Shown in pieces: positions 37,179 through 41,295 of a DNA stretch of 41,436 nt (position 1 is the stretch's first letter; the number at the start of each line of letters is the position of its first letter). Below the pieces are notes generated by a model. The model was not told the origin of the DNA and did no database searches. It saw nothing but the letters and a program-made list of their open reading frames with translations. A program made the translations under genes and the position numbers. This stretch comes from Microgenomates group bacterium Gr01-1014_7 (lineage in GTDB: Bacteria > Patescibacteriota > Microgenomatia > Daviesbacterales > UBA10151). The stretch is from positions 1 through 41,436 of the forward strand of contig VMGD01000010.1 in assembly GCA_007376405.1 (NCBI GenBank), given 5' to 3'.

Positions 37179-37449
37179 AAATTGCCTTTACCACAAAAAA
37201 ACCATCTCTTTTGGATTTGGCATTTTTTAAAGCTTCTTCCTGGGATAAAGAGTTTGTTATTTCATCATCGCGGGTAACATTTTCCAGACCGGTAACCTGG
37301 CTTGTAGGTTCAACACCCTTGGTATCAATTTCTTCCAGTTTATTTACATAATCCAAAGTTTGGGAGAGCTGTTCTGCCAGTTTTTCCTCTTCATAATCTG
37401 TTATGGGCAAATTAGCCAGCTTTGCAATTTTCTTAACATCAATCTTCAT
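37165..37449 (-). CDS. gatC: Asp/Glu-tRNA amidotransferase subunit C
   Basis: KKIAKLANLPITDYEEEKLAEQLSQTLDYVNKLEEIDTKGVEPTSQV. Confidence 0.93.
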   Translation of the reverse strand: MKIDVKKIAKLANLPITDYEEEKLAEQLSQTLDYVNKLEEIDTKGVEPTSQVTGLENVTRDDEITNSLSQEEALKNAKSKRDGFFVVKAIFDNE

Positions 37450-38378
37450 AACCTACCTTCCATTTGCTGGAGGGCTTTGATGCGGGATTCAATTGGGGGG
37501 TGGGTATTGAATAAATTGGCCATAAATGCTTTTGCTTCTTTACCCTTTAGCGGATTTACTATATAAAGATGAGCTGTGCCGCGGTTTGCAACTTCCAAAG
37601 GTTCTTTATCTTTAGAAATTTTAAGTAGTGCATTTGCTAACCCTTCAGGATATCTTGTTAATAAAACTCCACTGGCATCTGCCAGAAGTTCCCGGCGGCG
37701 GGAAACTGCCAGCTGGATTAAAGTAGCAATAATTGGAGCCAAAATTGCGGCAGTTATAGCCAAAATCATAAAAAGTTGATTTCCTTTGGAATCTCTATCA
37801 CGCCCCCCGTACCACATTGATCTCATGAAAAAATCGGAAAGAAGCGCTATAATTCCAACCAAAACCGATACAACAGCCATAACCAAAGTATCCCTGTTTC
37901 CCACATGAGAAAGTTCATGGGCGGTTACTCCTTCCAGCTCCTGTTTGCTAAGTTTAGATAAAATCCCGGTAGTAAAAGCAATGGCGCCGTGTTTTGGATC
38001 TCTGCCTGTGGCAAAAGCGTTGGGGGCGCTGTCATCTATGATATAAATTTTGGGTAAAGGCAACCCCGCGGCAATGCAAAGGTTTTCAACAGTCCTGTAA
38101 AGTTCTTTATGGCTTTTTTCAGAAACCGGTTTTGCTCCGGAAACTCCTAAAACTATTTTGTCAGACCAAAAGTAAGAGACAAAATTCATCACTCCCGCCA
38201 TAATTAGGGCAAAACCCACTATTCCCAAGCCCCCCACTTCCCCGTATCCAAACCCGCGTGCTATTACATAAACTACCGCCACAGTAAAAGCACTAAAAAA
38301 CCCCATGATTACCCATGTTTTAAATATATTTCCTGAAACATGATCCCATGCAGTATTAACAGTTGCCATAATGAGCAT
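37446..38378 (-). CDS. htpX: Zinc metalloprotease HtpX
   Basis: PNAFATGRDPKHGAIAFTTGIL; VTAHELSHVGNRDTLV (HExxH). Confidence 0.95.
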   Translation of the reverse strand: MLIMATVNTAWDHVSGNIFKTWVIMGFFSAFTVAVVYVIARGFGYGEVGGLGIVGFALIMAGVMNFVSYFWSDKIVLGVSGAKPVSEKSHKELYRTVENLCIAAGLPLPKIYIIDDSAPNAFATGRDPKHGAIAFTTGILSKLSKQELEGVTAHELSHVGNRDTLVMAVVSVLVGIIALLSDFFMRSMWYGGRDRDSKGNQLFMILAITAAILAPIIATLIQLAVSRRRELLADASGVLLTRYPEGLANALLKISKDKEPLEVANRGTAHLYIVNPLKGKEAKAFMANLFNTHPPIESRIKALQQMEGRL

Positions 38379-38398: not shown

Positions 38399-39400
38399 TT
38401 ATCTCCACAGCCAAATTTGATTTTTCAATTGTTGGACTACTTTAAAACTATTAGCATGTTGTAAGTAACCTAAATAGGATTGAAGAGACTGATTAAAATT
38501 TTCCGTGCCAATTTTTTCTTTTAGTTTTGTAAATATTCTCTTTTTGGTTTTCGTTCTTGGTAAAACATAATGAGGCAAAACAATATAGCCTAGGAAGTCT
38601 ATACCCCAATCCAATCGGCGGAAAATAATTTTATCCGGATGAAGTTCCAAATTTAGGTGGTCTTTTAAAAATTCTGATAAAGGAACCACTAATCTTTCTA
38701 AAGCTCTCTTATTTGCTGACAGAATCACAAAATCATCAGCATAACGGAGATAATATTTAATCTTCATTTCATGTTTTATAAACTGGTCCAGATCATTCAT
38801 GTAAATATTGGCAAATACTTGGGACGTTAAATTTCCAAGTGGAATCCCTTTTCCTTCGCCCGGTTCGGAGTGAAAACTATCAATCACATTTGCCAGTAAC
38901 CGCAGGATATCCGGATCCTTAACCTTTTGTTTCAAAAGTACCATGAGGATTTTATGATCAACATTGGCAAAGAATTTTTTTATGTCTAATTTTAATACCC
39001 AACTATCCCTTATATAGTTTTTAGATACAATCCTTGTAAAATTTCCTAATCTTCCTACTCCTTTGTGTGTTCCTTTTTCTAATCTACAGGAGTAAGAATC
39101 GTGAATGAAACTTTTGTCAAAAACCTCATACAGATACTTATAAAGTAAATGGTGTACTACTCTGTCAGCTACAGTTGCTTTGTGAATATGTCGGAGTTTA
39201 GGATCATGAACATAAAAAGAGTGGTAATTCCCATGCCGATAGGTTTTATTTTTTAGTGCTAAATGAAGATTAAAAAGATTTTCTTCTAAGAAACGTTCAA
39301 ATAACATGACATCAGTCTTTCTTCTTTTCCCAACCTTAAATTCATTCCAGGCTTGAAATAGATTTGGAAGTGATATAAAATCCCTGTACAAAAAAAGCAT
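38399..39400 (-). CDS. DGR reverse transcriptase
   Basis: LKLDIKKFFANVDH; GKGIPLGNLTSQVFANIYMNDLDQFIK; YLRYADDFVILS; DGR-type motif GxxxGNLTSQ; start set at ATG 39400 (track gives GTG 39430 inside the CA repeat). Confidence 0.93.
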   Translation of the reverse strand: MLFLYRDFISLPNLFQAWNEFKVGKRRKTDVMLFERFLEENLFNLHLALKNKTYRHGNYHSFYVHDPKLRHIHKATVADRVVHHLLYKYLYEVFDKSFIHDSYSCRLEKGTHKGVGRLGNFTRIVSKNYIRDSWVLKLDIKKFFANVDHKILMVLLKQKVKDPDILRLLANVIDSFHSEPGEGKGIPLGNLTSQVFANIYMNDLDQFIKHEMKIKYYLRYADDFVILSANKRALERLVVPLSEFLKDHLNLELHPDKIIFRRLDWGIDFLGYIVLPHYVLPRTKTKKRIFTKLKEKIGTENFNQSLQSYLGYLQHANSFKVVQQLKNQIWLWR

Positions 39401-39781
39401 ATGTTTAAAGATATCCACACACACACACACACAGCTATAGTAGGCCTAGATATCCCTATCTTTGGCAAACTTTACGACCTCTATAAACTTTCTACTCAAT
39501 ATCTAACTTCTTTCCCCAAAGCTAAAAGATATACCCTCGGTCAAAAAATTGATCAAACAATTATAGATATTATTGAGCTGGTAATAATGGCAGGATATTT
39601 ACCCCGGGAGCAGAAACTGCCCAGCCTCCAAAAGGTCAGTATTAAACTGGATTTATTAAAAATATTTCTTCGGCTATCCATTGATACCAAATGTATTGAT
39701 AATAATAAATACCAACAAATACTCTTACAAACCCTTGAGATAGGCAGAATGCTGGGCGGTTGGATTAAAACTGTTAAATAA
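39401..39781 (+). CDS. avd: Avd-like DGR accessory protein (four-helix bundle)
   Basis: DIPIFGKLYDLYKLSTQYLTSFPKAKRYTLGQKIDQTIIDIIELVI...KLDLLKIFLRLSIDTKCIDNNKYQQILLQTLEIGRMLGGWIK. Confidence 0.88.
   Translation: MFKDIHTHTHTAIVGLDIPIFGKLYDLYKLSTQYLTSFPKAKRYTLGQKIDQTIIDIIELVIMAGYLPREQKLPSLQKVSIKLDLLKIFLRLSIDTKCIDNNKYQQILLQTLEIGRMLGGWIKTVK
39416..39433. repeat. (CA)9 dinucleotide microsatellite
   Basis: cacacacacacacacaca within avd 5' coding region and upstream of RT. Confidence 0.95.
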
Positions 39782-39786
39782 GCAAA

Positions 39787-39810
39787 GCTTGCCAGATAAA
39801 TCTGGTAAGC
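39787..39810. terminator. Hairpin GCTTGCCAGA-taaa-TCTGGTAAGC between avd stop and TR
   Basis: 10-bp arms with one G-U pair; no clear T-run, so may be a TR-RNA structural element instead. Confidence 0.45.
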
Positions 39811-39837
39811 AGTGCTTTTCAGATTAAGGGAGATTAT

Positions 39838-39948
39838 CACAGGCGAGAAGCCGGTATTGTTATTACGATTGTCAACGGAATTGTTGTTGACGTTGGCTAG
39901 GCCACCATTGTTGGAATTACCACCAATGAGCCGGTTGTCACCCTGAAA
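39838..39948 (-). repeat. DGR template repeat (TR)
   Basis: 111 bp matching VR at 93/111 positions; 17 of 18 differences are at coding-strand adenines of this copy. Confidence 0.95.
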
Positions 39949-39990
39949 TTAGTACTTTAAACCGAACTTACTTCACTGAAAATCTAGCCA

Positions 39991-40356
39991 ATGCTAAATT
40001 ATTCTGTATTTTATCGACCAACTTTAGTTAAATTGGCACAAAGTCTAAAGTACCGTAATATCCCTTCTCTTAGTTTTATTGGAAAATTACTCTTTTAAGC
40101 TCTTACTGAACCTAAAACTCTGAATCTTAAACCCAATAAAAAATTCGGCGACTTCAATCCTTGAATTGAAATACATGAGCCTTATCGAAGAGATTTTAAA
40201 AAATAAAAAGCAAGTTTTCAAGAAGCAAAAATCAAGGGTCTTATTCCAAGAAATAATAAACCCAAGTTATCGAGGTTTAGAAGAGAATTCTACCACAGGC
40301 GAGAAGCCGGCATCGTAATCACGACCGTCAACGGAACCGTCGCCGACGTGGGCTAG
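39991..40356 (+). pseudogene. ORF-like frame with three in-frame stops between TR and VR
   Basis: MLNYSVFYRPTLVKLAQSLKYRNIPSLSFIGKLLF*ALTEPKTLNLKPNKKFGDFNP*IEIHEPYRRDFKK*KASFQEAKIKGLIPRNNKPKLSRF..., stops at 40096 (TAA), 40162 (TGA), 40204 (TAA). Confidence 0.45.
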
Positions 40357-41295
40357 GCCACCATCGCTGGAACTACCACCAATGAGCCGGTCGTCGCCCC
40401 GAAAAACTGGATCACCAAACCATTCCCATGTATTAGTTTGTCCCCATTCTGGGTGAGCTATATTACCCCGAATGTTAAATTCTATATACCTTCTATTTCT
40501 AACAATTCCTTTAGCTCCACTTGCCTCTGCAAATACTGGAAGGATTACTCCTTCAATTTCTCTAGGAAAAGCTCCTGCACGAGCATAATCTGAAACATAA
40601 CTATGTTTTTCAATTCCATCTGAGGCTCCTCTTAAAGCTACCATCACAGGCTCCATGTAATCATTATCTCCATATCTTTGCTTGCCGTTGTCATACATTG
40701 ACTTGCCTCTTCTGTCCCCGATAAACCAACCTTCTATCAAAACTGTTGCTTCTTCTGGATAATTACCAACCCTTACTTGTCGCCAAAAGTTTTCTCCTGG
40801 TTTTACTCTTCCGCTTGCTTTCCAAAACTTATCATTTTCCTTTAATTGTAGACCCGGTTGATAATAAACCTCATCAAATCTTGTGATATCTCTGGCAGCA
40901 AAGTTTTCCAGTGTTTCAAATAAATCTTGGGGTGGAGTTGGTACTTCCCAATCTCTGCCAAAATTTGATTTTATTTCTGCTATTGCGGCTGTTACCAACT
41001 GATTTGAAGATGGGAGTACTAATCCTTCTACTGATTTTACGATATAAATACTATTAACTACTTCTGCAACCGATGGTCTAGTTTCTACTGGATCTGCTTG
41101 AGGAGTTTGGACAGGAGTTTCTTCTGGTATAGATTTTGCTTGAGCAGCTTGTGCTTCTGCAACTTCTACCCTTTGAAAAAGAGTTCCTGTAGCTTCAGCA
41201 TCTGCTATTTTACCTTACATCAAGGCTCTCTCTTGTGGAGTTATATTGGCTTGTTTAGCAAGAATTTTTCTACCAGCTTCTGCCCATTCGATCAT
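40267..41295 (-). pseudogene. DGR variable target protein gene, interrupted by in-frame TAA at 41217-41215 (downstream open part 40267-41214)
   Basis: Frame continuous from ATG 41295 (MIEWAEAGRKILAKQANITPQERALM*GKIADAEATGTLFQRVEVAEAQ...) to stop at 40267; C-terminus WEWFGDPVFRGDDRLIGGSSSDGGLAHVGDGSVDGRDYDAGFSPVVEFSSKPR contains VR. Confidence 0.75.
40294..40404 (-). repeat. DGR variable repeat (VR) at the 3' end of the target gene
   Basis: Aligned to TR without gaps at offset 456; lies in frame at the C-terminus of ORF 40267-40998. Confidence 0.95.

Follow-up and report, generated by a model that had tools for sequence, protein, structure and literature searches.

What decides whether a diversity-generating retroelement (DGR) is active in a given cell? 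The question is raised by a DGR in a 41,436-nt stretch of DNA (contig VMGD01000010.1 of assembly GCA_007376405.1, Microgenomates group bacterium Gr01-1014_7; hereafter the window), in which avd, the accessory gene, carries a pure (CA)9 tract that begins five codons into its coding sequence and lies immediately upstream of the gene for the reverse transcriptase (RT). From comparisons of this locus with its relatives we consider it highly probable that DGR activity is gated by slipped-strand phase variation of avd. We infer that in living populations replication slippage adds units to, or removes them from, the short tandem repeat that follows the avd start codon ((CA)9 here), and that such changes shift avd into or out of frame. 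With 6, 9 or 12 CA units avd is in frame, and such cells would make Avd, which would form a complex with the RT, and the variable repeat (VR) would then be rewritten from the RNA of the template repeat (TR) with adenine mutagenesis; out-of-frame cells would lose Avd, make a short peptide only and retain their present VR. The presumed adaptive reason is that bursts of diversification would be followed by fixation.

The CA tract in the window and in its genome

When the length of the tract was changed in silico, (CA)6, (CA)9 and (CA)12 yielded Avd proteins of 124, 126 and 128 residues, respectively, and (CA)7, (CA)8, (CA)10 and (CA)11 yielded only peptides of 11-29 residues. A consequence for DGR activity is suggested by analogy with the DGR of the Bordetella phage BPP-1, because in a reconstituted BPP-1 system nonsense mutations in avd lower retrohoming to about 1e-9 (PMC12875486). 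In addition, the tract may influence RT expression, since it stands directly upstream of the RT gene.

The host belongs to the candidate phyla radiation (CPR; Patescibacteria) and has a genome of 1.09 Mb; the closest relatives of its RT in named genomes are found in Daviesbacteria, Levybacteria and Woesebacteria. This genome has six DGR RTs in total (D1, in the window, to D6), with a divergent avd beside each, and every DGR has a TR and a VR to itself, with differences that are adenine-specific. Direct reading of 152 kb of the genome showed just five dinucleotide repeats with five or more units, one at each avd/RT junction of D1 to D5, and a pattern search of the whole 1.09 Mb placed every (CA/GT) or (GA/CT) tract of at least six units at these same five sites. 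The tracts of D1 to D4 consist of 9, 10, 12 and 6 CA units (GT on the RT strand), respectively, and that of D5 of 9 GA units (RT strand). Read for frame, D1 is in frame (ON), D2 to D5 are out of frame (OFF), each by its own tract, and D6 has no tract.

The five DGRs besides the window's lie on contigs C26, C5 (three) and C25 (L021-L025); at the sixth DGR, on C25, two paralogous target genes stand on either side of a gene resembling AAA+ ATPases, and a gene resembling recombinases is close by (both as judged by eye). RT matches were found in 9 of 45 genomes of the family, the other eight having one RT each (some as split or partial matches), and in 107 of the 380 genomes sampled from the phylum. 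We considered the number of six DGRs per genome as a novelty in its own right and set it aside: it is unusual within the family, but another CPR genome has seven RT matches and multiple DGRs have been published for nanoarchaea (PMC4372165).

Tracts at avd junctions across the CPR

An avd gene within 3 kb of the RT gene was found at 174 loci, at 170 of which it lay directly upstream of RT in divergent orientation; at one further locus it overlapped RT. At the remaining three loci avd was on the RT strand, and all three lacked a tract. These three (L113, L218 and L221, all Patescibacteria) cluster on the RT tree. The CPR survey set comprised 166 avd loci after identical loci were dropped, with one genome per species. 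Tracts were scored by repeat length minus unit length, with a strict cut-off of at least 8 (112 loci) and a looser cut-off of 7 (120 loci). A strong repeat at the avd N-terminus was present in 112 of the 166 junction windows, as against 227 (2.4%) of the 9,341 control windows that these loci provided (p = 7e-128). The unit at the 120 loci of the looser cut-off was C in 79, CA in 15, CT or GA in 16, a 4-mer in five, a 5-mer in three, an 8-mer in one and A in one. Units of 3 or 6 nt were absent from the 112 strict tracts (observed units of 1, 2, 4, 5 and 8 nt) yet made up 94 of the 227 control repeats (p = 2e-20).

Individual loci of the survey are recorded here for completeness. The longest dinucleotide tract seen was a 47-nt (GA) tract at the avd/RT junction of L190. 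At L039, a locus with a C12 tract, avd could not be recognised as an intact frame, and its coding sequence looks interrupted by a stop. The search of viral contigs gave a single relative, L228 (an IMG/VR contig classed as viral), which has a CPR-type DGR with a divergent, tractless, in-frame avd.

Tract turnover between orthologues

Closely related loci differed in the tract itself. L068, L200 and L064, which are 83-89% identical around avd, nevertheless carry (AACC)10, (CAAT)7 and (ACGA)9, respectively, and L069, L071 and L203 (90-96% identity) carry C9, C12 and C8; the alignment of L069 with L071 has three gap positions in 428, the size of the difference between their tracts. Register also differed among orthologues that share a start peptide, L048 being in frame and L052 and L088 out of frame, and L074 in frame and L061 out. 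As far as these alignments go, orthologues show retention of the state of being a repeat rather than of the repeat sequence. On the RT tree, 17 changes are needed to account for tract presence, 31 for tract type and 16 for ON/OFF state with 16 ON loci.

Reading frame, selection and past activity

The 120 tract loci differed markedly from tractless loci in whether avd has an in-frame start. Among the 43 divergent loci without a tract, 37 have an in-frame ATG near the Avd domain; the other six include loci with sub-threshold C7 tracts and loci at which the domain match is partial or misplaced. Of the tract loci, by contrast, 30 have an in-frame ATG upstream of the tract (p = 3e-12), with no in-frame start at 83 and the rest ambiguous. 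At 117 of the 120, however, there was an upstream ATG whose frame was open to the tract, for which a mononucleotide shuffle gives an expectation of 43%, and the stretch from tract to Avd domain was open in the avd frame at 118. At the 99 loci where all candidate ATGs agree on the register, it was 0 in 17, 1 in 50 and 2 in 32.

The ratio of nonsynonymous to synonymous substitution rates (dN/dS) for avd was 0.03-0.14 in close pairs, including 0.05 for L069/L071, both of which are out of frame, and 0.35 in a more divergent pair (L121/L158). Most tract loci have no in-frame ATG, yet their avd is, judged by these ratios from close pairs, under purifying selection, and an out-of-frame avd is not a dead gene. 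At 77 OFF loci, 1334 of 1393 TR/VR mismatches fell on TR adenines, as did 559 of 579 at 34 tractless loci; the median fraction of TR adenines changed was 57% at the 77 out-of-frame loci, 58% at the 34 tractless loci and 49% at 14 in-frame loci. Because the VRs at out-of-frame loci differ in this adenine-specific manner, the DGRs concerned are, on the evidence of their repeats, elements that were active in the past.

In sum, the avd tracts appear to have the properties by which contingency loci are recognised: a tract in the 5' coding region above background, a unit length that is not a multiple of three, a length that varies among relatives, and both ON and OFF alleles of a gene under selection.

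Weighing phase variation against alternative explanations

Several observations weigh against phase variation of avd. At the looser cut-off 46 of the 166 loci, including D6, have no tract, and the switch is therefore common but not universal. Poly-C is also found elsewhere in CPR genomes: runs of at least 10 occur in 75 of 240, and of 30 that were sampled (L237-L266) 6 lie at DGR junctions and the others near other genes, where they may point to additional phase-variable genes or may reflect noise in the assembly of contig ends. The in-frame share of 17/99 is below the one third expected from neutral switching (p = 4e-4), a deficit that looks as if OFF were favoured, and C tracts are skewed to one of the out-of-frame registers (40 vs 18, with 12 in frame). 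These registers depend on predicted start codons, with several candidate ATGs at some loci, and short-read consensus may miscall C9-C12 by one, an error that does not affect units of 2 to 5 nt. Furthermore, the differences in tract length among close relatives are known between species only; two tract lengths inside one species or population were not seen in our sets, which hold one genome per species.

Poly-C is plausibly slippery to ribosomes and polymerases, and the predominance of out-of-frame C tracts, with one register in excess (40 + 18 out, 12 in), would suit programmed slippage. Under that explanation slipping on the tract, by RNA polymerase or by the ribosome, would ensure that some Avd is always made at any genomic tract length, and the tract would set dosage rather than an on/off state. 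Such slippage would not predict (CA), (CT), (AACC), (CAAT), (ACGA) and (ACAGG) tracts at the same site, nor turnover of the unit between orthologues; moreover, all three registers are found, and a shared start peptide does not entail a shared register among orthologues (L048 vs L052/L088; L074 vs L061). We regard it as unlikely. A role in tuning the RT, in which the tract would act on transcription or translation through its spacing upstream of the RT start, or on the RT frame itself, with avd a bystander, draws on the short distance from tract to first RT ATG (median, 17 nt) and on 38 loci that have no RT ATG after the tract, 36 of them having, farther upstream, an ATG from which the frame runs open to the tract (in frame at 13). 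Control by spacing would, however, allow a unit length of 3, which occurs in 0/112 tracts; a stop lies between tract and RT ATG at 22 loci, so that there the tract is outside RT; and the openness of the avd frame from tract to domain (118/120) points to avd. This role is still less likely than programmed slippage.

Microsatellites can arise neutrally and RTs can make repeats, and the locus might accordingly be an ordinary constitutive DGR whose tracts are either neutral or produced incidentally by the RT. The site specificity of the tracts, their exclusivity within their own genome, the lack of units that are multiples of three and the preservation of a tract despite turnover of its unit make this the least credible of the alternatives, with very little probability left to it. 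Each of the three explanations is disfavoured because of the mixed unit lengths, the exclusion of multiples of three and the unit turnover, and slipped-strand phase variation of avd is the reading that we prefer.

The DGR of the window

The original prediction was of a DGR at this locus, and the elements it named were all recovered about where it had placed them (Table 1). By nearly every sequence criterion that can be tested the locus is a DGR, and as a DGR it is ordinary. Both of the motifs by which the RT had been assigned to the DGR type, GIPLGNLTSQ and YADD, are present in its open frame (38399-39430, minus strand); its best match in the PDB was 8ub7 ('Reverse transcriptase', E = 3e-41), which we take to be the BPP-1 RT, followed by a group II intron RT (4.5e-20), and it matched the PHROG RT at 2e-108. 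The protein described as Avd-like scored above the curated cut-offs of NF033474 (90 vs 80 bits; E = 8.9e-26) and PF22296 (65 vs 40 bits; E = 7.8e-18) and matched the PHROG 'Avd protein of DGR' at 1.5e-24; a PDB sequence search with Avd gave no match. RT, TR and VR share one strand, and avd is on the other.

The repeat pair had been given as 111 nt with 18 differences, which is the same match cut before its last A>G change; the ungapped match is 114 nt long with 19 differences. Of these 19, 18 are at template adenines (16 A>G, 1 A>C and 1 A>T) and one is T>C (p = 1.9e-11 for at least 18 of 19 differences falling on the 32 adenines of TR), and the pair fits the adenine-specific mutagenesis that had been named as the hallmark of DGRs. 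A bias toward A>G (16/18) was rejected as a special feature, since G was the commonest replacement across 138 loci as well (1384 G, 520 T and 441 C). Further VRs for the same TR were searched for in the genome, and none was found beyond the known pair. A 31-nt piece of the TR downstream flank, from the hairpin region, is repeated with 87% identity at C1:435-463 (L009), away from any DGR found. The hairpin, read on the opposite strand, could be the avd terminator.

The description of the DGR as complete holds for RT and Avd, which are intact, but has to be qualified for the target gene, whose frame, closed by the VR, has a TAA 26 codons in; after it the first in-frame ATG, GTG or TTG is the TTG at 40998. 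The TAA may have arisen by nonsense mutation or by faulty assembly; alternatively, translation may begin further downstream. Since the TAA is followed by no such codon before TTG 40998, the N-terminus of the target may have been lost or mis-assembled. Homologues of the target occur in five other genomes of the class, and in one of these (G004) the homologue lies 0.9 kb upstream of a DGR RT belonging to the same genome. An AlphaFold model of the target had a mean predicted local distance difference test score (pLDDT) of 58 overall and <50 in VR, too poor to judge a C-type-lectin fold, and a PDB search with the target gave no match. The htpX gene does adjoin the DGR, as had been claimed; a chromosomal location is only likely, given the gatCAB and htpX neighbours, the window being a whole contig of a metagenome-assembled genome. 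The earlier statement that DGRs are known in CPR genomes is correct, 'clade 2' DGRs having been described from them (PMC8144416). The original prediction was, on this evidence, right yet incomplete, as it made no mention of the slippage tract in avd, the interruption of the target gene, the strand of avd or the five other DGRs.

Table 1. Features of the DGR locus and its neighbour, with positions in the window
Feature	Position	Strand	Remarks
htpX	37446-38378	-	
DGR-type RT	38399-39400	-	inferred ATG start at 39400-39398; the frame runs through the repeat tract and stays open to 39430
CATATG palindrome	39398-39403		carries head-to-head start codons of RT (-) and avd (+); from sequence
avd	39401-39781	+	divergent from RT; in frame (ON) at nine CA units
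(CA)9 tract	39416-39433	+	avd codons 6-11; 16-33 nt upstream of RT start; proposed slipped-strand phase-variation switch
Stable hairpin	39770-39834	-	directly downstream of TR; z = -3.5
TR	39835-39948	-	
IMH*-like 3' end of TR	39838-39854	-	CCGGCTTCTCGCCTGTG; identical in VR; named by analogy with BPP-1
VR	40291-40404	-	
IMH-like 3' end of VR	40294-40310	-	identical in TR; named by analogy with BPP-1
Target gene	40267-41295	-	VR at 3' end; in-frame TAA 41215-41217; homologues among targets of other CPR genomes

Implications and relation to known systems

Extended to the CPR as a whole, the proposal is that targeted hypermutation is under stochastic control: phase variation of avd would activate any given DGR in a minority of cells, and a genome with several DGRs would exist as a mosaic of cells that diversify different targets in bursts, with most cells fixed. 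We hold this to be probable, slightly less so than the gating of DGR activity itself. If it is true, the avd tract is a genetic and heritable control of DGR activity that can be read directly: sequence from any metagenome would give the ON/OFF state, and a long read that also covers the VR would allow this state to be set against VR diversity. Two separate mechanisms of diversification, contingency loci and DGRs, would be joined, a stochastic switch gating a mutator, in uncultured bacteria that form a very large group. A passage in Roux et al., on non-structural and cellular targets that change less steadily, asks whether control of RT activity or selection is the cause (PMC8144416), and a 2026 study names the regulation of DGRs in the wild as an exciting frontier (PMC12875486).

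In literature searches on DGRs combined with phase variation, repeats or homopolymers, no paper reported a switch of this kind, as judged mostly by title and abstract; subscription papers, such as the 2017 survey of DGRs in CPR and DPANN, were outside the scope of that search, and priority is not proven. As far as could be checked, a contingency tract in a DGR accessory gene is new.

Among described DGRs, the window's DGR shares with that of BPP-1 (avd-TR-brt, with mtd) the RT, Avd, the TR/VR pair, adenine-specific mutagenesis, a GC-rich TR/VR 3' end that is identical in both repeats and a hairpin near the repeat. In BPP-1, however, avd precedes TR and is read in the same direction (PMC12875486), whereas here avd is divergent, TR lies past the 3' end of avd and a slippage tract is located in avd. 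With DGR clade 2 of Roux et al. 2021, which is cellular and restricted to Patescibacteria (PMC8144416), it has in common the host group, a target without a recognised domain and the TR/VR pattern, a likeness drawn independently of an RT tree; a term search of the main text of that paper found no mention of Avd or homopolymers, and its sole 'phase' does not refer to phase variation. The tract itself resembles the simple-sequence contingency loci of Neisseria, Haemophilus, Campylobacter and Helicobacter, which likewise have short pure repeats, with units that are not multiples of three, near the 5' end of a coding sequence, and alleles both in and out of frame. Known contingency loci mostly switch surface antigens or modification enzymes, whereas the gene that would be switched here is part of a targeted hypermutator.
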